64,000 nt of DNA. It comes from Phycisphaerales bacterium (GTDB taxonomy: Bacteria > Bacteroidota > Bacteroidia > Chitinophagales > Chitinophagaceae). Where the stretch lies: NCBI GenBank assembly GCA_030054025.1, contig JASGCQ010000002.1, positions 1-64,000 on the forward strand, written 5' to 3'. The position numbers and the translations under genes were made by a program. The notes under the pieces are model-generated. The model ran no database searches. It was not told where the DNA came from and was given only the letters and a program-made list of their open reading frames with translations. The first letter of the stretch is position 1. Each line of letters starts with the position of its first letter. This document shows positions 4,429 through 63,352 of the stretch, one piece after another.

Positions 4429-4920
4429 CTATCTAATTACAATAGATAATGATCCAATTACATTATCATTTTGACAATCTAAAAATACCATTTTTACAGT
4501 ATCACCAACTTTTCCATCATATTCGTTGCTTAATTTCATAATTTCATCCTTACGAGAATCCCAATAAAAGCATAAGTCTTGAAATATGCTATTGGTTCTT
4601 TTGGGTTTTAAAACAATATTGAGATGCCTGCATCCATCATAATATCTAGTATAGTGAAATAGAAACCCATAGTAGTAAACAAAAGGGTTTCTATTTGTCC
4701 AAATCTCTAAGTCGTTTTCCCAATTTTCAAATGCCTCTCCCGACGGTATCACCACTAAATCTTTTGTTACAAAAATGTTTTTTTCTTTGCTCTCTAAAAT
4801 CGTACTAGCATTGAAACTTGTTTTATACGTAAATTTTCCATCCAATAACATTATGCTAGATACATAATATGCAGATGCTAAAAAGAAAAAGAAAACTATT
4901 ATGCCTAAACGTTTATTCAT
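4429..4920 (-). CDS. membrane-anchored candidate immunity protein (paralogue of 2324..2833)
   Basis: MLLDGKFTYKTSFNASTILESKEKNIFVTKDLVVIPSG...DTVKMVFLDCQN; directly downstream of RHS-toxin ORF 4945..5814. Confidence 0.6.
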   Translation of the reverse strand: MNKRLGIIVFFFFLASAYYVSSIMLLDGKFTYKTSFNASTILESKEKNIFVTKDLVVIPSGEAFENWENDLEIWTNRNPFVYYYGFLFHYTRYYDGCRHLNIVLKPKRTNSIFQDLCFYWDSRKDEIMKLSNEYDGKVGDTVKMVFLDCQNDNVIGSLSIVIR

Positions 4921-5819: not shown

Positions 5820-6323
5820 CTACCTTATTGATGAGTTAGTATATTGGCAAACAACTTTTCTATTCATATTATCATACATTACAATAATTCTAACATAATA
5901 ATTTTCGTACCTTAAAGAATAAAAGGAATAAGTAATGTTTTTTATAATTATTGGTTTTAAAATATTTAGGAACAATATGTTTTTTATATCTTTTTTTATT
6001 AATACATCTGATATATATTTTTTGTCGTATTTTATAACGAAATCTTTATTCATTTCAAGACATAGTATATTACTATCAATTGCTTTATAAACATCTTTGT
6101 AGTAGTGTTTAGGAAACATCCCAAACAATTTTATTGAATCAATTTCTGTTCTAGAAATTTTAAGAGTATATGACAAAGGATTAATTACAAAATATTCTTT
6201 GTAGATCTCAATATTATTTAGAACAAAAGAATCACTACAGCTAAATTTATATGTGTCTTTGTTTTTGCTATACGTGTTGATATAAAGAAATAAAATTACA
6301 ATTAATGATAGTATGTATTTCAT
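5820..6323 (-). CDS. candidate immunity protein with N-terminal signal/hydrophobic segment
   Basis: MKYILSLIVILFLYINTYS start; small AT-rich ORF directly downstream of the RHS-metallopeptidase ORF; no recognised family. Confidence 0.5.
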   Translation of the reverse strand: MKYILSLIVILFLYINTYSKNKDTYKFSCSDSFVLNNIEIYKEYFVINPLSYTLKISRTEIDSIKLFGMFPKHYYKDVYKAIDSNILCLEMNKDFVIKYDKKYISDVLIKKDIKNILFLNILKPIIIKNITYSFYSLRYENYYVRIIVMYDNMNRKVVCQYTNSSIR

Positions 6324-48816: not shown

Positions 48817-51800
48817 TTATTCTTCGTCGTCGAACTCAAGAACGTCTTTATTCGCCATCAACAATTCGTATTCGTCTTTAGAACCTACAATGATTCCGTC
48901 GAAATCACGATTACCAGTACCGGCAGGTATCAAGTTGCCCGTAATAACGTTTTCTTTCAATCCTTGTAAGGTATCTGATTTACCATTGATTGCTGCTGTG
49001 GACAATACTTTAGTTGTTTCTTGGAACGAAGCCGCAGAAATCCAACTGCGTGTGCCTAAAGAAGCCTTAGTAATACCCAATAACAAAGGCATTGAGGTTG
49101 CGGGCTCTGCATCGCGGTATTCTACCAATTTTCTATCGGCACGGCGCAAAGCAGAGTTTTCTTCACGAATCTCACGCAATGTAGCAATTTGACCTGGATG
49201 CAATACTTCTGAACCACCATTTTCAGTAACGACTTTCTTATCAAAAATCCAATCGTTTTCTGTCATGAAGTCGAATTTATCTTCCGTATCGTTTTCCAAG
49301 AATTTGGTATCTCCTGGATCTACAATGGTTACCTTACGCATCATCTGACGCACAATTACTTCAATGTGCTTGTCGTTGATTTTCACCCCTTGCAAACGAT
49401 ATACCTCTTGAATTTCATTCACCAAGTATTCTTGTACTGCAAATGGACCTTTAATAGCCAAGATATCGCTTGGTGTTGTAGCACCATCAGACAATGAATT
49501 ACCCGCTTTGATAAAGTCACCGTCTTGCACCGTAATTTGACGTGTCAAAGGCACAAGATATTTTTTCACCATTCCGTCTTTAGACTCAACGGTGATTTCA
49601 CGGTTACCGCGTTTGATATTACCAAAAGCAACCACACCATCAATCTCCGCAACTACAGCAGGATTGCTTGGGTTACGCGCTTCGAACAATTCAGTTACTC
49701 GTGGAAGACCTCCCGTGATATCTCTGCTACGCCCCATCACTCGTGGTATCTTAGCGATTACTTGTCCGTTGTGTACTTTCTCATTTTCACTTACAATGAT
49801 ATGAGAACCTACGGGTAAGTTGTATGATTTATCATCCTTACCATCAATCAAAATAGCAGGTATTTTTGTTTTATCTTTGGTTTCGATAACCACTTTCTCG
49901 CGGTGGCCGGTTTGTTCATCGGCTTCTTCGCGGAAGGTAACCCCTTCTACGATGCCTTCGAAACGTACTTTACCGGTTACTTCCGAAATGATTACCGCAT
50001 TAAATGGATCCCATGCACAAATCGGTTGTCCTTTGGTAATCTTTTGACCATTCTTGATTTTAAGAATAGAACCATAAGGAATATTGTGTGTAGTGAGTAA
50101 ACGGTCGTTGGTTACATCCACTAAGCGCAATTCGCCCGTACGTCCGATAACCACCACTTGATCTTCACCTTCTTCACTTTTGTATGTAGTAGTACGCAAT
50201 CCGTCAAATTGTGCGGTACCATCAAAACGAGACAACAATTGAGAATCGGTTGCAGAGCTACTCGCTACCCCACCAACGTGGAAGGTGCGAAGCGTCAGCT
50301 GTGTACCTGGTTCACCAATGCTTTGTGCGGCGATAATACCAACAGAATCTCCTTTTTGCGCCATGTAGCCTGTTGCCAAATTTTTACCATAACATTTAGA
50401 GCAAACCCCTTTCTTAGCCTCGCAAGTCAATACCGAACGAATTTCAACGATATCAATTGCAGTATCTTCAATAGCTTTTGCAATATCTTCTGTGATTTCT
50501 CCACCCGCCTCAACGATTAGTTCATTAGACAATGGGTCAATGACATCGTGCAATGAGGTACGACCTAAGATACGGTCATACAATGATTCGATAATTTCTT
50601 CGTTGTCTTTCAAGGCTGAAGTAGCAATACCACGTAGTGTACCACAATCTTCTTCATTGATTACAACGTCTTGAGCCACGTCAACCAAACGACGGGTCAA
50701 ATAACCCGCATCCGCTGTTTTAAGGGCGGTATCCGCTAGACCTTTACGAGCACCATGGGTAGAGATAAAGTACTCCAATACCGACAAACCTACTTTGAAG
50801 TTCGACAAGATTGGGTTTTCGATAATCTCTGAACCTGATGAACCCGAACGACGAGGTTTCGCCATCAATCCACGAAGACCAGCCAACTGTTTTACTTGTT
50901 GCTTACTACCACGAGCTCCGGAATCCAACATCATATATACGGAGTTGAAGCCTTGCTTGTCGGTAGCCATTTCCTTAATCAATGTTTCGGTAACACGTGT
51001 ATCCACACGACTCCAAATATCAATGATTTGGTTATAACGCTCGTTGTTGGTAATGAGACCCATATTGTAGTTTTCCCACACTTCATCTACATCGCCATGA
51101 GCTTTGTTTACTAATTCTTCTTTGATTTCCGGAACAGTCAAATCTTTGATGTTGAACGACAATCCACCACGGAAGGCCGTACGGAATCCGAGTGTTTTGA
51201 TGTCATCCAAGAATTGAACGGTTTGCGGAATGTTGGTATTTTTCAAGATGTCACCGATGATTTCTCTCAATGATTTCTTGGTCAATAGTGCATTTACAAA
51301 TCCGTTTGATTTTGGTACAAACTGATTGAAGATAACACGACCTACGGTAGTCTCTATCAATTCGGTTTTCAAGCTCGCATCTTTCTGACGAACGCTGGCT
51401 CTTACCTTAATCCAAGCGTGCAAATCGGCACGTCCTTCATTGTTGGCAATCACTACTTCTTCAGCAGAATAGAAGGTTTTTCCTTCACCTTTTACAAGCT
51501 CAGCATCGGTAGTTTTTTTACCTTTTGTGAGGTAGTACAAACCAAGAACCATGTCCTGAGAAGGGAGGGTGATGGGTGTACCATTTTGAGGGTTCAAGAT
51601 GTTATGAGAAGCCAACATCAACAATTGAGCTTCGAGAATAGCAGCATGGCTCAATGGAACGTGAACCGCCATTTGGTCACCATCGAAATCCGCATTGAAC
51701 GCCGAACACACCAATGGATGGAGCTGTATCGCTTTACCTTCAATCAACTTGGGTTGGAAGGCTTGGATAGACAATCTATGGAGCGTTGGGGCACGGTTGA

Positions 51801-53139
51801 GCAAGATAGGATGTCCTTTCAAAACATTTTCCAAGATATCCCAAACCACCGCTTCTTTGCGCTCTACTAATTTCTTAGCACTCTTAACGGTCTTTACAAT
51901 ACCACGCTCAATCAATTTGCGAATGATAAATGGTTTGAACAATTCCGCAGCCATATCTTTAGGAATACCGCACTCGTGTAGTTTCATCTCTGGTCCTACC
52001 ACGATTACCGAACGTCCGGAATAATCCACACGTTTACCCAACAAGTTTTGACGGAAACGACCTTGTTTACCTTTCAATACATCTGAAAGTGATTTCAAAG
52101 CACGTCCACCTTCTGCTTTTACGGCATTGGATTTACGGCTATTATCAAATAATGAATCCACGGCTTCTTGAAGCATACGTTTTTCATTACGCAAGATGAC
52201 TTCGGGTGCTTTAATCTCCAACAAACGCTTTAAACGGTTGTTGCGGATAATCACACGACGATAAAGGTCATTCAAATCAGAAGATGCAAAACGACCACCA
52301 TCTAAGGGTACCAATGGGCGCAATTCGGGTGGTATGATGGGCAAATATTGCATCACCATCCACTCCAATTTATTTTCTACTCTGGTATTGGCTTCACGGA
52401 AAGCTTCAACTACGCTCAAGCGTTTCAAGGCTTCTTGTTTACGTTGTTGCGAGGTTTCGTTGGCGGCAGCATTACGCAATTCGTAACTCAAGGTATCGAG
52501 GTCGATACGAGACAACAAATCGTGTACCGCTTCGGCCCCCATCTTAGCGATGAATTTATTCGGGTCTTCGTCGGGCAAATAATGATTGTCTTTAGAAATC
52601 GCTTCTTGAATCTCCAGATATTCATCTTCGCTCAACAATTGTTGATGTACGTTTTCAGAATCTTTCAAATTCAATTTTTGGCGAATCAAATCTTCTGCTT
52701 CACCCGCTTGTACTACTACATAACGCTCGTAATACACGATGCTTTCCATTTTTTTGGAAGAGCAACCCAAGAGGTAACCAATTTTATTGGGCAAGCTTTT
52801 GAAATACCAAATATGCACTACAGGCACCACCAATTTAAGATGCCCCATGCGCTCACGACGTACTTTCTTTTCCGTAACTTCCACACCACAACGGTCGCAC
52901 ACGATGCCTTTATAACGAATACGCTTGTATTTACCACAATAGCATTCGTAATCTTTTACAGGACCAAATATCTTTTCGCAAAACAAGCCATCACGCTCGG
53001 GTTTGTAGGTACGATAGTTAATCGTTTCGGGTTTCAATACCTCGCCGTAAGAACGATCGAGTATCACATCGGGTGATGCAAGACTGATGGTGATTTTGTC
53101 AAACCCAGCCTTCGGACGATTTTCTTTTTTAATTGCCAT
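48817..53139 (-). CDS. rpoC: DNA-directed RNA polymerase subunit beta'
   Basis: [59 protein letters not shown]. Confidence 0.98.
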
Positions 53140-53164
53140 ATTATTGAGAGTGTATTTTTAAAGA

Positions 53165-54586
53165 TTATTTTTTAATATACCTATTTGTGTCAGAAAAAAT
53201 AAAATATTTACTATTTAATTCATTGTAATTGAATGCCCCCCACTTAGTAATAAAGGATTTATTCTTATCAATTGCCCAAGCAAACTCATCTTTGTTTTCT
53301 TCAATTATAATACTGCGTGCTTGTCCATATTCCATGGAAGATAAAAGCCAAAATTCATATGAACTTCCCCATGTCATTAAAAGAGTTTGAAGGGGTACAG
53401 CTTTTGAAGTTAACACGATTTTTTTCTGAGGTAATGAATTTGTATCATGTAAAAAATGCCTATACCATTCTAAACGGTGAGTATAAAAATGATGCGTATG
53501 AAAAATTCTGACAATTCCAACAAAACTAATAACGCCAATTAAAACAACTGGGACAGTTAGATTCTTAATTGATGGTAAAAAATCAAAAGCAAAGGGTATA
53601 GCAACAAAACTAGAAATAAGCAAGTATTGATTTTCGAGATAAAATTGATCCGCACCCTGAGGATAAGAGGTATTGACGATAAATATATAAATAAAAGAGT
53701 AAAAAAACATGAGGAAGATCTTAGCATAAAGTTTGCACCTAATATAGTAGATTCCGACGATGCTCATAATAATTGGAATGAAAAAATAATCTTTTAGAAA
53801 ATAGTGCAAAAAATTTTTATTAGACTGAATATTAAAATAATGAGGGAAAAGTTGAAAAATATTTTTCAGCCCTCCTATCGCTTGGCTGTCGTATGCTGTT
53901 TTAAAAAAGATACTTTTTATAAGCAGGAAAGTTGCATATATTAAAAATTGAAATAAAATAAATTTTCTTTTATCGGGATAATTAAGGTACAGAAACGAAA
54001 AAGAAAAGAGAGCTACAAACAAAAGAAGCGGATGAGTAAAACAAATAATAAACAGTAAAGAGGGAGATAACCAACTAAAATAGAGAGGAACTACATTTTT
54101 ATTGAGAATATTATCAAATAGGGATAAGAAAATAAACAAAAAAGCGACACCTTGAGGTAATTCAGACTGAATCCAAAAAAAAGTATGTGTCGTCATTAAA
54201 ATACTAAATAATAAAAAAGCGATTCCAAATTTTGTATTCTTAATCACTTGAAAAATAATAATGAAGGCACTTGCATAAAAGACCACAAAACTCATCGAAT
54301 AGATCAAAGCTATATTGCTAATTGACAATCCCATTTTTGAGCCTAGAAGTGGGAATGCTTGAGTAACAGCCGCACCAAATCTATTATTTTGAATAGCAAA
54401 TGTGCCGTCTTTTAATATACAGAATAAATGATAGGATATATCTAAAAATACCGTTCTCTCTTTATAAAAAAGAACAGATAATGAGAGTAAAATTAAATAC
54501 AGCACAGCACCAATACAAAATATCCACTTTGATTGAATTTGTTTTGACATTAAATATTTTTTTTGCCTATCAAAATTGGTACTCAT
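53165..54586 (-). CDS. multi-pass membrane protein, possibly GT-C-like
   Basis: Many hydrophobic helices across 473 aa; start overlaps the stop of the GT2 ORF (ATGA). Confidence 0.6.
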   Translation of the reverse strand: MSTNFDRQKKYLMSKQIQSKWIFCIGAVLYLILLSLSVLFYKERTVFLDISYHLFCILKDGTFAIQNNRFGAAVTQAFPLLGSKMGLSISNIALIYSMSFVVFYASAFIIIFQVIKNTKFGIAFLLFSILMTTHTFFWIQSELPQGVAFLFIFLSLFDNILNKNVVPLYFSWLSPSLLFIICFTHPLLLFVALFSFSFLYLNYPDKRKFILFQFLIYATFLLIKSIFFKTAYDSQAIGGLKNIFQLFPHYFNIQSNKNFLHYFLKDYFFIPIIMSIVGIYYIRCKLYAKIFLMFFYSFIYIFIVNTSYPQGADQFYLENQYLLISSFVAIPFAFDFLPSIKNLTVPVVLIGVISFVGIVRIFHTHHFYTHRLEWYRHFLHDTNSLPQKKIVLTSKAVPLQTLLMTWGSSYEFWLLSSMEYGQARSIIIEENKDEFAWAIDKNKSFITKWGAFNYNELNSKYFIFSDTNRYIKK

Positions 54587-55470
54587 TTCTTCAAAATATA
54601 ATTTTCGTAACTCAGGTTATATCCTATTTTATTTTGTACAAAATTTTTCAACTTTTGCTTAAAAGTCAATTTGTTAAAGGATAAGTCGTAATCAAATTTC
54701 CAATTCTTTTGTTCTATTCGTTTTTTCATCGCCTCAGGGTGTGTTCCGGTAAAGAGTTCGAGGGCATCTATATGACTGGCATAATCAAATTGCTCGGCTT
54801 GCCTTACGTTTTTCTTCACCCATTCATCGTCGTGCCATAGTTTGTTAAAAGTCTCCTGCTTGCGTTGCATTGCTTTAGGCTCTTTTACCCATCCGTAGTG
54901 ATATACAAAAGCTTCTACGGCTGCTACGCTGAGTTTCTCACCCTTATTCTTCCGAAAGCCCTGAGCGTCTCTGTAAGAATAAATGTGAGGATTTCTCCGC
55001 ACGATTCTTATTTCGTTCCGATACCATCCCGGAGCAATACCCACATAATCGTAAGAACCATAAAAGTGAAGGTACTTGAACAACAAGCCATCCACTGTTT
55101 TGTCTTCTTGGTATCGCTGCATTGCCTCTTGTATAGCAGGGTGATATTGTTCGTGTACCACTTCATCTCCTTGAATATAAAAGCACCAATCTGTATCTTC
55201 ACCTATTGCTGCAAAAGCCTTGTCTGTTTCTACAGCCAATACTTTGCCGCCTTCTCTCAAACTATCATCCCAAACTGTTTCTACAATTCTAATTTTTTCA
55301 GGATTTATATTTTTTATTAAAGCCAGCGTTTCATCTTCTGATTGCCCCACTGCCACTACAAAATCATCACAAAGTGGTAATATGGACTGTATCGCTTCGA
55401 CTATTGGGTAGTCAAATTTTATAGCATTTCTAATAAACGTAAATCCTGTAACCTTCATCATTATATTCAA
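54583..55470 (-). CDS. family 2 glycosyltransferase
   Basis: VTGFTFIRNAIKFDYPIVEAIQSILPLCDDFVVAVGQSEDETLALI...DTDWCFYIQGDEVVHE. Confidence 0.85.
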   Translation of the reverse strand: MNIMMKVTGFTFIRNAIKFDYPIVEAIQSILPLCDDFVVAVGQSEDETLALIKNINPEKIRIVETVWDDSLREGGKVLAVETDKAFAAIGEDTDWCFYIQGDEVVHEQYHPAIQEAMQRYQEDKTVDGLLFKYLHFYGSYDYVGIAPGWYRNEIRIVRRNPHIYSYRDAQGFRKNKGEKLSVAAVEAFVYHYGWVKEPKAMQRKQETFNKLWHDDEWVKKNVRQAEQFDYASHIDALELFTGTHPEAMKKRIEQKNWKFDYDLSFNKLTFKQKLKNFVQNKIGYNLSYENYILKK

Positions 55471-55482
55471 CCATCATCTAAT

Positions 55483-55950
55483 TTACTTCTTTGCATTTAA
55501 ATAATCTTGTTCTGTAAAAGTGTATGTAAAGTACCCCTTTAAGAATTTCTTATTTTCTTCAACAATTGTTTTTACATAGTTTTCACTATTAGATATATTT
55601 CTATTATTCTCAAATTTTATGCATTCATCACAAGTAATCGTTGAATTAAATTTTAAATGAATTACTTTAATTGAATCATCAAATAATATTACTATAGAAT
55701 CATAAGGTTTTAACAAAGTTCCATAATCAGGACTAAGTGTTTTACCATGTACATTTGATTCAAATACTTGCAAATTTCCAAGGGGTTTTATAAGAAATAT
55801 CCCAAATGAATCAACGGAACCCATTGTATATGGATAGATTCGAATACTATGTTTTGACTCATTTTTCAAATATGACCTTGTATTACTTTTATAATCTTTA
55901 ATGCAACTCAAAAAAAAGAAAAAAACAATTACTGTTAGAATGATTTTCAT
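55483..55950 (-). CDS. small hypothetical lipoprotein
   Basis: Lipobox-like VFFFFLSC at N-terminus; intact AT-rich ORF. Confidence 0.5.
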   Translation of the reverse strand: MKIILTVIVFFFFLSCIKDYKSNTRSYLKNESKHSIRIYPYTMGSVDSFGIFLIKPLGNLQVFESNVHGKTLSPDYGTLLKPYDSIVILFDDSIKVIHLKFNSTITCDECIKFENNRNISNSENYVKTIVEENKKFLKGYFTYTFTEQDYLNAKK

Positions 55951-55958
55951 AATTATTT

Positions 55959-57566
55959 TTAATATGCTGCTAAAAGTGTGTCTATTTGACCATCCGTAAC
56001 ACCTGATGGTTTGAAAGCTTTCAATCTTGTAGATAGACTACTTATACCATACACATGTTTTAGAATATTTGCTTCAATATTAGCAAAAGTATATCCTTGA
56101 ACTCGGTCTTTTGTGGATCCAAATAAAAAAAAGTCATTTACATTATCATACAAATTAATATATAAATTTGTATAATCATGAGAGTGTGTAGCTTTACTCC
56201 AATACTGATATGCTTGATTGTTAGGATGTTGAACAGTTACTGTATAATTCCAGTCTCCATAATTAGCGACACTTCTTGTCGTTTTGTACTCTAATTTTGT
56301 CAACCACCATTCCACTGCTACAGGCCAACTTTCTTGTAGTTGTGAGCTTACTTGTAAATATTGTATAAGTCCTGCATTCATTTTAACAATATGACTTGTA
56401 TGTGCTAATTCGTGGCAAGTTGTTGAAAAAATTTCATCCGAAGCATACTCACCGCTAGAACTATTTCGTGCAATTTTTAAAATAGGAAAAATCCCATAAT
56501 TTACACCTGACCAATCTCTAGTGCCATTTTTGGCTAGAAACAATGTTCGATTACCAGAAGGTCTAAATGGTCTTTGTAAGCCATCAATAAAGCTATAGTG
56601 ATATCGAAATGCTCCCCTGAAGATATGACCAACAAATCTGAGATAACCACCACTTATTACATAATTCCAATCACCCCCCTTTTTAGGACCATCAATCCAA
56701 GTAGTTGAACCAAAAAAATGTTCTCTTACAGAAAAACGCAGTGTAGTAAACCAAAGTGAATAGTTACAATCCCTTTCGAAACGACCGCTCATACGATAAT
56801 TACCATTAAAATCTGTAGTAGCACTATAAGTAGTAAACCATCTTCTTGCTCTCATTTCTACCCCTTCTAAACCAATGTTTCTTCCTAAACGTGTATCAAA
56901 TATTTCAATTTTACCACCTGGGTTGTACTTAGCTCTTGTTACCTTAGCTGTAGAAGATGTAGCTCCAAGCGTGTCTGAAAAGTTACCTGTTTGTACATAA
57001 GCTCTGTCTAATAATTTGTTCAAAAACGTTTCCTGTTCTGGTATTTCATCATTTATACGACTATCTTCTTCAGGGATGTACATTTCAGCCAAAACTTGGT
57101 GGGTAATGTTTTGAGGGAAAACATAATTAGTTTTTACAGCAGCATATTGATAAGTAGGCGTAGATGCAGGTAAACTTGGGTCATGATAACGATTTCCAGC
57201 TTGAGTTATCTCATAATCTAATGGATAGTCGTAAACCTTTAAATTTGAGTCTGCACTTAATTGCTCATATTGAGCAGAATCGGATGGGCTGAACTTCACA
57301 TAATAATGAGTTGCGCTTATTTGATTCGGCAATAAATAAGTATATCCTTGTTGCTGAATTGCAGTCGCAGCAGCTACCATATTAGCTACAGTGTAAGGGT
57401 TCTGTAATTGTGCGCCTAATACCAAATCTCCTTCACTATCTTGAGGAATAATTTTAGCTATATTTTGTGATTTTGTATCTCCTTTATTCTCTATTACAAC
57501 ATTTTCTTTTTTACAACTAAAGATAGGCAAACAGAATAATAGACTTATATATTTTTTCATTCGCAT
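55959..57566 (-). CDS. lipoprotein with HExxH (putative zinc metallopeptidase)
   Basis: Lipobox LPIFSC; TTCHELAHTSHI (HExxH at 56400-56414) followed by QESWPVAVEWWLT; regulatory-like NGNYRMSG segment. Confidence 0.65.
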   Translation of the reverse strand: MRMKKYISLLFCLPIFSCKKENVVIENKGDTKSQNIAKIIPQDSEGDLVLGAQLQNPYTVANMVAAATAIQQQGYTYLLPNQISATHYYVKFSPSDSAQYEQLSADSNLKVYDYPLDYEITQAGNRYHDPSLPASTPTYQYAAVKTNYVFPQNITHQVLAEMYIPEEDSRINDEIPEQETFLNKLLDRAYVQTGNFSDTLGATSSTAKVTRAKYNPGGKIEIFDTRLGRNIGLEGVEMRARRWFTTYSATTDFNGNYRMSGRFERDCNYSLWFTTLRFSVREHFFGSTTWIDGPKKGGDWNYVISGGYLRFVGHIFRGAFRYHYSFIDGLQRPFRPSGNRTLFLAKNGTRDWSGVNYGIFPILKIARNSSSGEYASDEIFSTTCHELAHTSHIVKMNAGLIQYLQVSSQLQESWPVAVEWWLTKLEYKTTRSVANYGDWNYTVTVQHPNNQAYQYWSKATHSHDYTNLYINLYDNVNDFFLFGSTKDRVQGYTFANIEANILKHVYGISSLSTRLKAFKPSGVTDGQIDTLLAAY

Positions 57567-57595
57567 TAATTATTGTTTTATTAATAGTTTTAGAT

Positions 57596-57623
57596 GGATA
57601 CGATGCTTCTACGCACCGTATCC
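57596..57623 (-). terminator. hairpin immediately 3' of rpoB
   Basis: GGATACGgTGC-gtagaa-GCAtCGTATCC on minus strand 15 nt after the rpoB stop; weak T tract. Confidence 0.5.
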
Positions 57624-57637
57624 TTATTAATTATCGT

Positions 57638-60600
57638 CTATTCAAATTTCAATTCAAGTCCCAAACCGCGCAACTCATTTACCAATACGTTGAACGATTC
57701 TGGAATACCTGCTTTCGGTACGTTGTCTCCTTTTACTATTGATTCATAAGTCTTCGCACGACCAGAGATGTCATCTGATTTTAACGTCAACAATTCTTGT
57801 AAAATATTAGCTGCACCATAAGCCTCGAGTGCCCAAACCTCCATCTCACCAAAACGCTGACCACCAAACTGAGCTTTACCACCCAATGGTTGTTGTGTAA
57901 TCAACGAGTATGGACCGATAGAACGTGCGTGCATCTTATCATCCACCATGTGGTGTAGTTTAATCATATAGATGATACCTACTGTTGCTTTTTGGTGGAA
58001 GCGTTCTCCTGTTTCTCCGTCATACAAATAAGTATGACCAAATTCTGGTAATTGTGCTTCTTCGATTAACTCTTCTATTTCAGGAACAGAAGCTCCATCA
58101 AAGATGGGTGTTGCAAAACGCAAGCCTAATTTCTCTCCTGTCCATCCAAGAATGGTTTCGTAAATCTGACCCAAGTTCATCCTTGAAGGTACACCCAGTG
58201 GGTTCAATACGATATCTACAGGAGTTCCGTCTTCGAGGAAAGGCATATCTTCTGCACGAACAATACGCGCAACAATACCTTTGTTACCATGGCGACCCGC
58301 CATTTTATCCCCTACTTTCAATTTACGCTTAGCAGCCAAGTACACTTTAGCCAATTTCAACACACCGGCAGGCAATTCATCGCCGATAGACAAGTTGAAT
58401 TTTTCACGTTTGTAACGACCTAATTCTTCGTTGTATTTGATATTGTAATTGTGCAGCAATTGGTTGATTGAACCGTCGGTTTCTTTATCTCCAGTCCATC
58501 CCAATGGGTTCACATTGGCATAATCAATTGTTGCCAACATTTTAGGATTAAATTTACCGCCTTTGCTCAATAGCATTTCGCCAAAGTTGTTGGTAATACC
58601 CATTGATGTTTTGTCTTTCAACAAAGTCATCAACTTATCCATCAACAAGTTCTTCAAATCAGACAAGACTGTTTCGTGAACTTTTTCGATTTTCTCTAAT
58701 TGAGTTTTATCTTTTAGTTTATCCTTCTTGTCTTTTTTAGCACGTTGGAACAATTGCTTGTGTATTACCGTTCCTTCGATACCGGATGGTGCTTTCAAAG
58801 AAGCGTCTTTTGCATCACCAGCTTTATCGCCAAAGATGGCACGCAATAGTTTTTCTTCAGGCGTTGGGTCGGTTTCTCCTTTTGGTGTGATTTTACCAAT
58901 CAAAATATCGCCTTCACCTACATGAGCACCAATACGGATGATACCATTTTCGTCCAAGTCTTTAGTAGCCTCTTCAGAGATGTTGGGTATGTCTGGAGTC
59001 AATTCTTCTTCACCCAATTTAGTATCGCGTACTTCTAATTCGTACTCGTCAATATGGATAGATGTAAACAAGTCGTCGCGTACTACTTTTTCGTTGATTA
59101 CAATTGCATCCTCGAAGTTGTACCCTTTCCAAGGCATGAATGCCACTTTCAAGTTGCGACCCAAAGCCAATTCGCCGCCTTGTGTTGCATAACCTTCAGT
59201 CAAGAAATCGCCTACTTTTACCTTTTGCCCTTTACGAACGGCGGGCTTCAAAGTGATACTGGTACTTTGGTTGGTTTTCTTGTATTTGGTAAGGATATAT
59301 TTTTTCAAATCGTCTTCGAAAGAAACCAAGCGGTCTTTCTCGCTACGATCGTAACGTACATGAATTTCATTTGCATCTACATACTCTACCACACCACTAC
59401 CATCTGCATGAATTTGGATACGTGCATCGCGAGCGGCTTTGCCTTCCAAACCTGTACCCACGATAGGTACTTGAGGGCGAATCAAAGGCACGGCTTGACG
59501 TTGCATGTTCGAACCCATCAAGGCACGGTTGGCATCATCATGCTCCAAGAAGGGAATCAAAGAAGCAGACAAACCAACGATTTGGTTGGGTGCCACATCC
59601 ATGAATTCTACTTCATTAGGGTCTAATATCGGGAAATCGCCTGTTTGGCGTGAGATAATTTTTTCGTCGGTAAAATGTCCTTTTTCATCCAAAGGCATAT
59701 TCGCTTGCGCAATTTTTGCCAAATCTTCTTCTTCTGCACTCAAGAACTGGTAGCTCTTCATATCTACTTTACCTTCTTTTACCTTGCGGTAAGGTGTTTC
59801 GATAAAGCCCATATCATTGATTTTTGCATGAACGCAAAGCGTAGAAATCAATCCGATATTTGGACCTTCAGGCGTTTCGATGGTACACAAACGACCATAG
59901 TGAGAATAGTGAACGTCACGAACCTCAAAGCCCGCACGCTCTCTGCTCAAACCACCTGGACCGAGTGCTGAGATACGACGTTTGTGCGTAATCTCCGACA
60001 ATGGGTTGGTTTGGTCAAGGAATTGTGATAATTGTGAAGTACCAAAGAAAGAATTAATTACAGAAGAAAGGGTACGTGCATTGATCAAATCAATTGGCGT
60101 AAACACCTCGTTGTCGCGCACATTCATGCGCTCACGGATGGTACGAGCCATACGGGCAAGACCAACACCGAACTGAGCAAACAATTGCTCGCCCACGGTA
60201 CGTACACGACGATTGCTCAAATGGTCAATATCATCCACTTCGGCTTTACCATTGGTCAAGCGCACCAAATATTTGATGATGGTAATGATATCTTCTTTGC
60301 TCAATACTTTTTTATTGCCGCTGATGTCTAAACCTAAGCGACGGTTGATTTTGTAACGACCAACTTCGCCTAAATCGTAACGTTTGTCGGAGAAGAATAA
60401 TTTTTCGATAATTCCGCGCGCAGTTTCGTCATCCGGAGCATCGCTACCACGCAATTGGCGATAGATATGCTGCACCGCTTCTAGTTCTGAGTTGGAGGTA
60501 TCTTTATTAAGGGTATTATAGATAATAGAATAATCGCCGCTCACTTCTTCTTTTTGAACAAAAACAGTAGCGATTTTCATTTCTAAAATCAAATCAATAC

Positions 60601-61450
60601 TATCTTCGCTCAATACGTTGTCGCGCTCCAAAATAACTTCGTTACGCTCAATAGAAACTACTTCACCAGTGTCTTCATCCACGAAATCTTCTGTCCAACT
60701 ACGCAATACACGAGCAGCCAAACGACGACCTAAGTTAGCCTCCAAAGATTTACGATCTGCTTTCACCTCGTCTGCCATTCCAAACAGTTGAAGGATATCT
60801 TTATCAGTTTCATAACCAATAGAGCGAAGCAAGGTGGTAACAGGGAATTTTTTCTTACGGTCAATGTATGCGTACATCACATTGTTGATGTCGGTAGCAA
60901 ATTCCATCCATGCTCCTTTGAAAGGAATAACACGGGCAGAATAGATTTTAGTTCCGTTAGGGTGCGTACTTTGACCAAAGAATACACCCGGAGAACGATG
61001 CAATTGAGAAACGACTACGCGCTCTGCACCGTTAATCACGAAGGTGCCACGAGGAGTCATGTATGGGATATTTCCCAAAAATACGTCCTGAACAATGGTT
61101 TCGAAATCAACGTGCTCCTCGTCATTACAACTCAATTTCAATTTCGCTTTAAGCGGCACTGAATAGGTAAGACCACGCTCCATACACTCTTCGATGGTGT
61201 AACGAGGCGGATCAATAAAATAATCTAAGAATTCAAGTACGAAAATATTACGGGTATCGGTGATGGGAAAATTCTCCTTAAATACTCGGAACAATCCCTC
61301 ATTGTCACGCTTATCGGGCGTAGTTTCGAGCTGAAAAAAGTCCTGAAACGATTGAAGTTGAATACCGAGTAGGTCTGGTGTGTCTGCCACGTCGTGGATT
61401 TTACCGAAATTGACACGACCAGTTGCCGTTCTTTTTTTTGTAGTAGCCAT
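57638..61450 (-). CDS. rpoB: DNA-directed RNA polymerase subunit beta
   Basis: [104 protein letters not shown]. Confidence 0.98.
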
Positions 61451-61497
61451 AGTATATAAAAACTCCTTTTTACGATATAGTATAAAGACAGAAATAG

Positions 61498-61528
61498 CCT
61501 ACCAGATAGGGTTTCCCTACCAGACAGG
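61498..61528. repeat. 13-bp near-identical direct repeat in rpoB leader
   Basis: CCTACCAGATAGG (61498-61510) and CCTACCAGACAGG (61516-61528). Confidence 0.6.
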
Positions 61529-61599
61529 ACATCTGAGATTAACAATAATTTCTTCTAAAAATAATGAACACGCGCGTTGTAATTCCCAGAAAGGGATTG

Positions 61600-61607
61600 C
61601 AAATGTA
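61600..61607 (-). promoter_or_regulatory. Bacteroidetes-type -7 element TACATTTG upstream of rpoB
   Basis: caaatgta on plus strand; implies ~140-nt leader to ATG at 61450. Confidence 0.4.
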
Positions 61608-61948
61608 TAGAATATGGATTAAATCAGCAAATTTTATTCAAAAAAGACTAATAAGAATGTTTGTTAAATTTTCACCAAAAAGGTGACCATGCTGAATTCA
61701 CGTTTGAAATGCAACAGGTTTTAAAAATAGTTTAATTGGCGAAAAGTGGTTTAGGTTTTTCTAGTCCTGGCGTTTATTTTGGTTTGAATAGTTAAGATTT
61801 CTTTATTTGAGTAACCGTTCAGGTCTGTTTTGCTGGTCAAGTATTGCCTAATGAGTCCGATTTGTTTTCGGTAGCGCTTATTTTATGGACTGTCATCTTG
61901 CTAATGACCGCTTCGTCAAATTGAATTATATTGTTCTAATCATGTTAT

Positions 61949-63352
61949 TTATCCAATGCCTATCTCTTGGTGTTGTGCTGGGATTTCTACGTCACGGAAA
62001 CCTTTTCGGATCAGGCGTGCTTTGAAATGTTGTTGCACATTGTATTCGCCATGCACCAAAAATAATTTTTCTACTTCTCTAGCATCTTGACATGCCAACC
62101 ATTGGCACATATCATCGTAATCGCCATGAGCACTCATGCTTTTTATGGAGCCTACTTCTGCATTCACCATAAAATGTTTGCCGAAAATAGACACTTCGGC
62201 TGCGCCAGAAGCGAGTCGTGCGCCCAATGATTGCGGCTCACAATAACCTACGATGAGTATGGTGTTTTTTGCATTTTCAATATTGTGCAAGATGTGATGT
62301 TTTACTCGTCCGGCCTCTGCCATACCCGAAGCGGAGATAATGACACAAGGTTCTTTGTTTTCATTGAGGGCAATGGATTCGTTGGCGTTTTCTATAAAAG
62401 ATAGTCCTGTAAAATCAAAAACATCTTCATCTCTTTTGAGCATGTTTTGTACCGAAGTATTGAAACATTCGGGATGTTCTTTGATAATATTCGTTGCTTT
62501 GATAGAAAGTGGGCTGTCCACATAATAGTTGAGTTTGGGCAGACGATTTTCTAGTTCTAATCGGTTGAGTGCGTACAAAAGTTCTTGTGTTCGCCCTACG
62601 CTGAATGCAGGAATGATGAGTTTGCCTTTTTTATCAATACAAGTATGTTTGATGTATTGCAGTAAGTCGTCTATCATCGGTTTGGCATCTTCGTGCAATT
62701 TGTCGCCATAAGTGCTTTCCATGATAATGACATCGGCTTGTGGAAATAGCTGCGGAGAGCGCAATATTACATCTCTGTATCGTCCCAAATCGCCGCTAAA
62801 AGTGATTCGTTTTGTTTTGCCCTCTTCTTTTATTTTTAGATTTACTGCTGCACTCCCCAAGATGTGACCAGTATCGGTATAAAGCAATTCGATGTCGGGG
62901 TCTATCTGTTTGGCTTGGTTGTAAGGCACGGTTTGGAATAAGGGCAGCACATTATTGGCATCTTCCAAATTATACAAAGGTTCTATGAGTTCCCTCCCGT
63001 CTCTTTGCCTTTGTTTGTTGATGTGCTCTACATCCGATACTTGTATGCGTGCAGAATCTAACAACATGATTTTGGCTAAATCTTCTGTAGCGTCGGTACA
63101 ATAAATAGGACCATTATAACCTTCGGCAACCAAGCGCGGCAGCAAACCGATATGGTCTATATGTGCGTGAGAAATAATGACGTAGCTCAACCCTGAGGGT
63201 TCGAAACCAAAATTCTTATTCATATCTAAGGTTTCTTTACCCATTCCTTGAAACAAACCGCAATCGAGTAATACTTTTTTGCCGTTTTTGAGATGAATAA
63301 TATGTTTGGAACCGGTAACTGTGCGTGCTGCACCGTGAAATGAGATTTTCAT
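61949..63352 (-). CDS. MBL-fold metallo-hydrolase, beta-CASP RNase-like
   Basis: ISHAHIDHIGLLPRLV, LLYTDTGHILGSAAVNLKI, FSGDLGR, IIMESTYGDKLHE, VIISASGMAEAGRVKHHILHNIEN, MSAHGDYDDM. Confidence 0.93.
   Translation of the reverse strand: MKISFHGAARTVTGSKHIIHLKNGKKVLLDCGLFQGMGKETLDMNKNFGFEPSGLSYVIISHAHIDHIGLLPRLVAEGYNGPIYCTDATEDLAKIMLLDSARIQVSDVEHINKQRQRDGRELIEPLYNLEDANNVLPLFQTVPYNQAKQIDPDIELLYTDTGHILGSAAVNLKIKEEGKTKRITFSGDLGRYRDVILRSPQLFPQADVIIMESTYGDKLHEDAKPMIDDLLQYIKHTCIDKKGKLIIPAFSVGRTQELLYALNRLELENRLPKLNYYVDSPLSIKATNIIKEHPECFNTSVQNMLKRDEDVFDFTGLSFIENANESIALNENKEPCVIISASGMAEAGRVKHHILHNIENAKNTILIVGYCEPQSLGARLASGAAEVSIFGKHFMVNAEVGSIKSMSAHGDYDDMCQWLACQDAREVEKLFLVHGEYNVQQHFKARLIRKGFRDVEIPAQHQEIGIG

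Follow-up and report, generated by a model that had tools for sequence, protein, structure and literature searches.

The adjacency of rpoB and rpoC is often treated as fixed in bacteria and as necessary for a balanced assembly of RNA polymerase. The closest described cases of intrusion come from the secE-rpoBC-str cluster of Gammaproteobacteria and Bacilli where, in the part of the source drawn on here, tusDCB lies between rpoBC and str and nrdHEF between rplL and rsmC, and where, after a small insertion, some descendant lineages became fully disconnected, with more than 10 kb in between (PMC8046335). The rpoB-rpoC locus of the 64,000-nt stretch of DNA analysed here (hereafter, the window) resembles these cases, as far as that part of the source covers them, in having a small set of genes inside a conserved cluster; however, the insertions presented there affect the borders of operons or the region preceding rpoB, whereas in the window the rpoB-rpoC junction itself is invaded (PMC8046335). 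Searches of the open-licence literature gave no description of rpoB and rpoC lying apart, whether in Chitinophaga, in Chitinophagaceae or in general, which is weak evidence of absence.

When compared with the ordinary rpoB-rpoC operon of Bacteroidia, the window shows the same strand and gene order and, as is usual there where spacer length allows, a hairpin without U-tract; the ordinary spacer, however, usually measures ~25-250 nt and is gene-free, while that of the window extends for 4.5 kb and holds four genes. Non-adjacency is shared with those Chitinophagaceae in which the two genes are split (e.g. Hydrotalea, Flavihumibacter and Pollutibacter), but in these they lie from 4 kb to Mb apart, nearly all with a U-tract terminator and a TAnnTTTG of their own, whereas the window genus has neither and keeps its genes in line.

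Passenger genes between rpoB and rpoC

The window corresponds to contig G000:C31 of a 2.49-Mb genome in 127 contigs. Coordinates, strands and identities (the last by Pfam) of rpoB (RNA polymerase beta subunit, nt 57638-61450) and rpoC (beta' subunit, nt 48817-53139), both on the minus strand, ~4.5 kb apart and in single copy in the genome, were confirmed as first given by the sequence-only reading. Thus, rpoC does not directly follow rpoB as in an intact unit, since four ORFs, all of cell-envelope type and on the rpoB/rpoC strand, occupy the gap (nt 53140-57637). Proceeding from rpoB to rpoC, the spacings are 71, 8, ~21-24, -4 (ATGA overlap) and 25 nt, which is tight enough for an operon; the last value agrees with the ~25 nt reported earlier.

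The passenger next to rpoB codes for a 535-aa zincin-like lipoprotein (nt 55959-57566, minus strand) with a lipobox-like FSC and a HELAH motif, and forms a two-gene module with the following gene for a 155-aa small lipoprotein (nt 55483-55950, minus strand). A glycosyltransferase-like (GT) gene (nt 54583-55458, minus strand), located at the same site in the congeners G005 and G001, comes next; comparison with its orthologues places the start at the ATG 55458/55461 and not at the TTG 55470. The stop of the GT gene is overlapped by the start of the last passenger (nt 53165-54586, minus strand), predicted to code for a 473-aa membrane protein, judged by eye to be multi-pass. Between this gene and rpoC lies a short rpoC leader (nt 53140-53164, minus strand), which ends in TTTAAAAATACACTCTCAATAAT and is common to the congeners G005 and G002. 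The gene identities proposed from the letters alone were retained for the two lipoproteins and the membrane protein, while the GT2 label is to be read as GT2-like only, the match to PF13704 reaching 20 bits, under the curated cut-off of 27.5. The earlier judgement that the passengers are unrelated to transcription holds. No solved-structure relatives of the membrane protein or of the HExxH lipoprotein were found, and the Rfam search of the 45-64 kb region matched no element.

The GC content was 0.289 for the membrane protein gene, 0.246 for the small lipoprotein, 0.344 for the HExxH lipoprotein and 0.378 for the GT gene, compared with 0.396 +/- 0.043 for the remaining genes of the window. Two of the four values are thus clearly outlying, whereas that of the GT gene is ordinary; the AT-richness proposed for the block is only partly right, not being uniform. 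Two more strongly AT-rich ORFs were observed elsewhere in the window (nt 5820-6323 and 4429-4920, GC 0.21 and 0.30), possibly representing further recent acquisitions.

Within the genus, the content of the gap is variable. In G005 and G001 the GT gene alone separates rpoB from rpoC (gaps of ~1.0 kb), and these two form with the window species a clade of GT carriers in the rpoC DNA tree (support 89/96). The 2.1-kb gap of G004 holds two related lipoprotein genes, other than the pair of the window, and an ORF similar to these ends shortly upstream of rpoC in G002. Homologues of the remaining passengers are found elsewhere: that of the HExxH lipoprotein on another contig of G001, with a small-lipoprotein gene directly behind, and those of the membrane protein at other genomic places in G004 and G003. 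Such nested, genus-variable content is most simply read as three modules added stepwise, the GT gene probably being the oldest, while the pair of lipoprotein genes, towards rpoB, and the membrane protein gene, towards rpoC, would be later additions. For the sequence-only reading, a survey finding the separation common in the lineage would have spoken against it; non-adjacency in general did prove common there (see below), while the complete four-gene block was seen in the window genome only. The specific block is an ordinary gene insertion in an unusual place.

In the 4-9 kb around rpoB/rpoC of G004 and G005, no match to the window was found except for rpoC and for rpoB, the latter together with a leader stretch of ~190-230 nt; having no further flanks in common, the pair has stayed in line while its neighbours were reshuffled. 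Within the genus, loci L031 and L032 share no flanking gene with the 48-62 kb region of the window, gene order being highly scrambled. Upstream of rpoB the window carries a beta-CASP nuclease gene (nt 61949-63352). The rplL gene is located away from rpoB, on another contig (G000:C80:35421); many other loci of the Chitinophagaceae also lack it upstream of rpoB.

Separation of rpoB and rpoC in Chitinophagaceae

The family was surveyed with one genome per genus, at least 95% complete, the two genes being considered split when found on different contigs or from 4 kb to Mb apart. By this definition, rpoB and rpoC are split in 29 of the 69 determinable Chitinophagaceae genera (~40%), including two single-contig genomes (G024 and G203) with distances of 1.6 Mb and 0.8 Mb, respectively. 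Outside the family, the split state was found in 4/21 genomes of the same order and in 3/~120 of the other orders of the class, all three belonging to one family (f58). The comparison of family and class gives p ~1.5e-11 (29/69 vs 3/112, with table counts taken by eye and nine further adjacent genomes added later), a value to be taken only as a guide, since members of one clade do not count as independent data. On the RpoB tree, obtained by a quick method and with several weak branches, the split state requires at least 10 changes. The split genomes make up several groups differing in the genes upstream of rpoC, which is consistent with several independent separations. Among 80 GTDB loci, Hydrotalea (e.g. 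L044), Flavihumibacter (L069/L072) and Pollutibacter were split, Chitinophaga and one Sediminibacterium MAG were adjacent, and no split case was present in Flavobacteriales or Sphingobacterium, as far as their loci extended sufficiently far downstream.

The two states differ in their transcription signals. A run of at least five T, located no more than 110 nt from the rpoB stop and typically right behind a hairpin, was detected in 27/28 split genomes of the family and in 9/37 adjacent ones, so that the U-tract is an imperfect marker. A TAnnTTTG within 250 nt upstream of rpoC was present in 26/28 split vs 4/37 adjacent genomes, and TACCTTTG in 21/28 (shuffle mean 0.2) vs 0/37. Adjacent spacers of at least 85 nt contain a strong hairpin in 23 cases out of 27 (z < -2), usually without U-tract. 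The window genus belongs by its signals to the adjacent state, having a hairpin without U-tract and no excess of TAnnTTTG in the gap. Because split genomes nearly always carry both signals and the window genus neither, the window looks like an early, still-coupled stage. G194, with a gap of 4.2 kb, has a U-tract terminator after rpoB and TACTTTTG 149 nt upstream of rpoC, and thus looks already decoupled.

In many split genomes (L158-L185) a palindromic leader, AAAATTGCAATTTTTAAAT, was observed directly 5' of the rpoC ATG, the whole 5' leader measuring ~150-200 nt. A word like ACAAGTGTGCGACGCAAC or AGTGAGTGACACAAC also recurs beside rpoC in several genera, in the spacers of L012, L048, L050, L122, L142 and L152 and in the rpoC leaders of L169 and L172, and has the look of a repeat dispersed in these genomes.

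In every insertion case seen (the window genus, L038, L048, L074, L076/L077, G149 and G194) the likely passengers lie on the same strand as rpoB-rpoC, counting the shorter antisense ORFs of the same spacers as spurious (two-sided p = 0.008 for ~8 independent events, the number of events being our own judgement). Same-strand passengers are expected if the polymerase has to read through to rpoC. By eye, the passenger of L038 was recognised as four-helix-bundle-like and that of L048 as ORF6N-like. The same-strand insertions of Saprospirales consist of two genes, alike in L076 and L077, and of one gene in L074.

Transcription of rpoC in the window

A putative rpoB promoter (nt 61600-61631, minus strand) is made up of TTTG (nt 61628-61631), which we take to be the -33 element, 20 nt, and TACATTTG (nt 61600-61607). 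The latter fits the TAnnTTTG -7 consensus (PMC9723704), and the candidate lies within the leader stretch of ~190-230 nt that rpoB has in common with its counterparts in G004 and G005. Between promoter and gene, the rpoB leader (nt 61460-61600) shows a repeated CTGGTAGG pattern (TCTGGTAGGG...CCCTATCTGGTAGG) with no Rfam match, which could be a regulatory leader. Just past the rpoB stop an 11-bp stem-loop is found (nt 57596-57623, minus strand; z -4.8, equalled by 0/200 shuffles), followed by ATCTAAAACTAT; a strong stem at this place is kept in G005, G001 and G004, though its sequence differs.

The best reading of these features is that rpoB, passengers and rpoC would still form one transcription unit from the rpoB promoter, and the rpoB-rpoC junction is probably a tolerated and repeatedly used landing site inside this otherwise intact unit. 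A GT-like gene would have entered just past the post-rpoB stem-loop in the common ancestor of G005, G001 and the window species; later, in the window lineage, the two-lipoprotein module may have been added on the rpoB side and the membrane protein gene on the rpoC side. Starting at the rpoB promoter, the polymerase would pass the stem-loop, transcribe the passengers and then rpoC, with a single ~13-kb message as the predicted product. The stem-loop could cause partial termination or processing.

Conversely, rpoC might already be decoupled, with an internal promoter in the GT or membrane protein gene and with rpoB transcripts stopping at the stem-loop. The strength of this stem-loop would fit such an arrangement, as would the decoupling that occurred in many related genera and a TTG at about the right upstream distance in 3 of the 5 TAnnTTTG matches of the 4.5-kb gap. 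These five matches, however, equal the number expected from shuffles (4.1), and the one closest to rpoC is ~380 nt away, within a coding region. Moreover, no U-tract terminator follows rpoB in the window, and no TAnnTTTG is present 80-250 nt upstream of rpoC, in a scan that would miss promoters departing from this consensus; G005, G004 and G001 do not show a nearby promoter upstream of rpoC either. We therefore regard an already decoupled rpoC as rather unlikely. The sequence-only reading had left open co-transcription of rpoC with the block or a promoter inside ORF 53165-54586: the former is likely, whereas the promoter signals inside this ORF did not exceed chance.

The same reading had taken the block for an insertion, which holds, although not as a single event. 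Acquisition of one island or mobile element between rpoB and rpoC would account for the two AT-rich outliers and for the patchy distribution of GT homologues across the order, the nearest one outside the genus being in another family (60%). On the other hand, neither a transposase nor an integrase was found among the four genes, the window is free of tRNA genes, the block boundaries show no direct repeats and PADLOC gave no match, and both a mobile element and a defence cargo were rejected on these grounds. Since the GT gene is common to three species and the flanking gap genes are not, stepwise entry is indicated; the single island, contradicted by G005 and G001, was also rejected and retains very little probability. 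Misjoins are possible in principle in a genome of 127 contigs, but a chimeric assembly at the gap would have to be reconciled with independent congeners showing the same junction architecture (the GT site in G005 and G001, the rpoC leader in G005 and G002), with rpoB and rpoC in single copy and with conserved sequence reaching both boundaries, so that its chance is close to nil.

Meaning of a labile rpoB-rpoC junction

With the landing-site reading preferred for the window, its genus would represent the first stage, and many split genera the last, of a series leading from insertion to disconnection. Chitinophagaceae may have lost the near-universal rpoB-rpoC coupling by a repeatable route, consisting of insertion at the junction, then gain of a U-tract terminator and of an rpoC promoter with long leader, then drift; we put this forward tentatively, as somewhat less than an even chance. 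The family-wide lability of the pair, with its matched terminator and promoter changes, is a more valuable lead than the block itself. With its repeated invasion and break-up of the pair, one family offers a natural experiment that bears on the importance of transcribing beta and beta' together and on the stepwise dissolution of operons, a process of which the window genus would be a rare intermediate stage. If the proposed route is true, many Chitinophagaceae would balance beta and beta' from two promoters, possibly via the AAAATTGCAATTTTTAAAT element of the rpoC leader.
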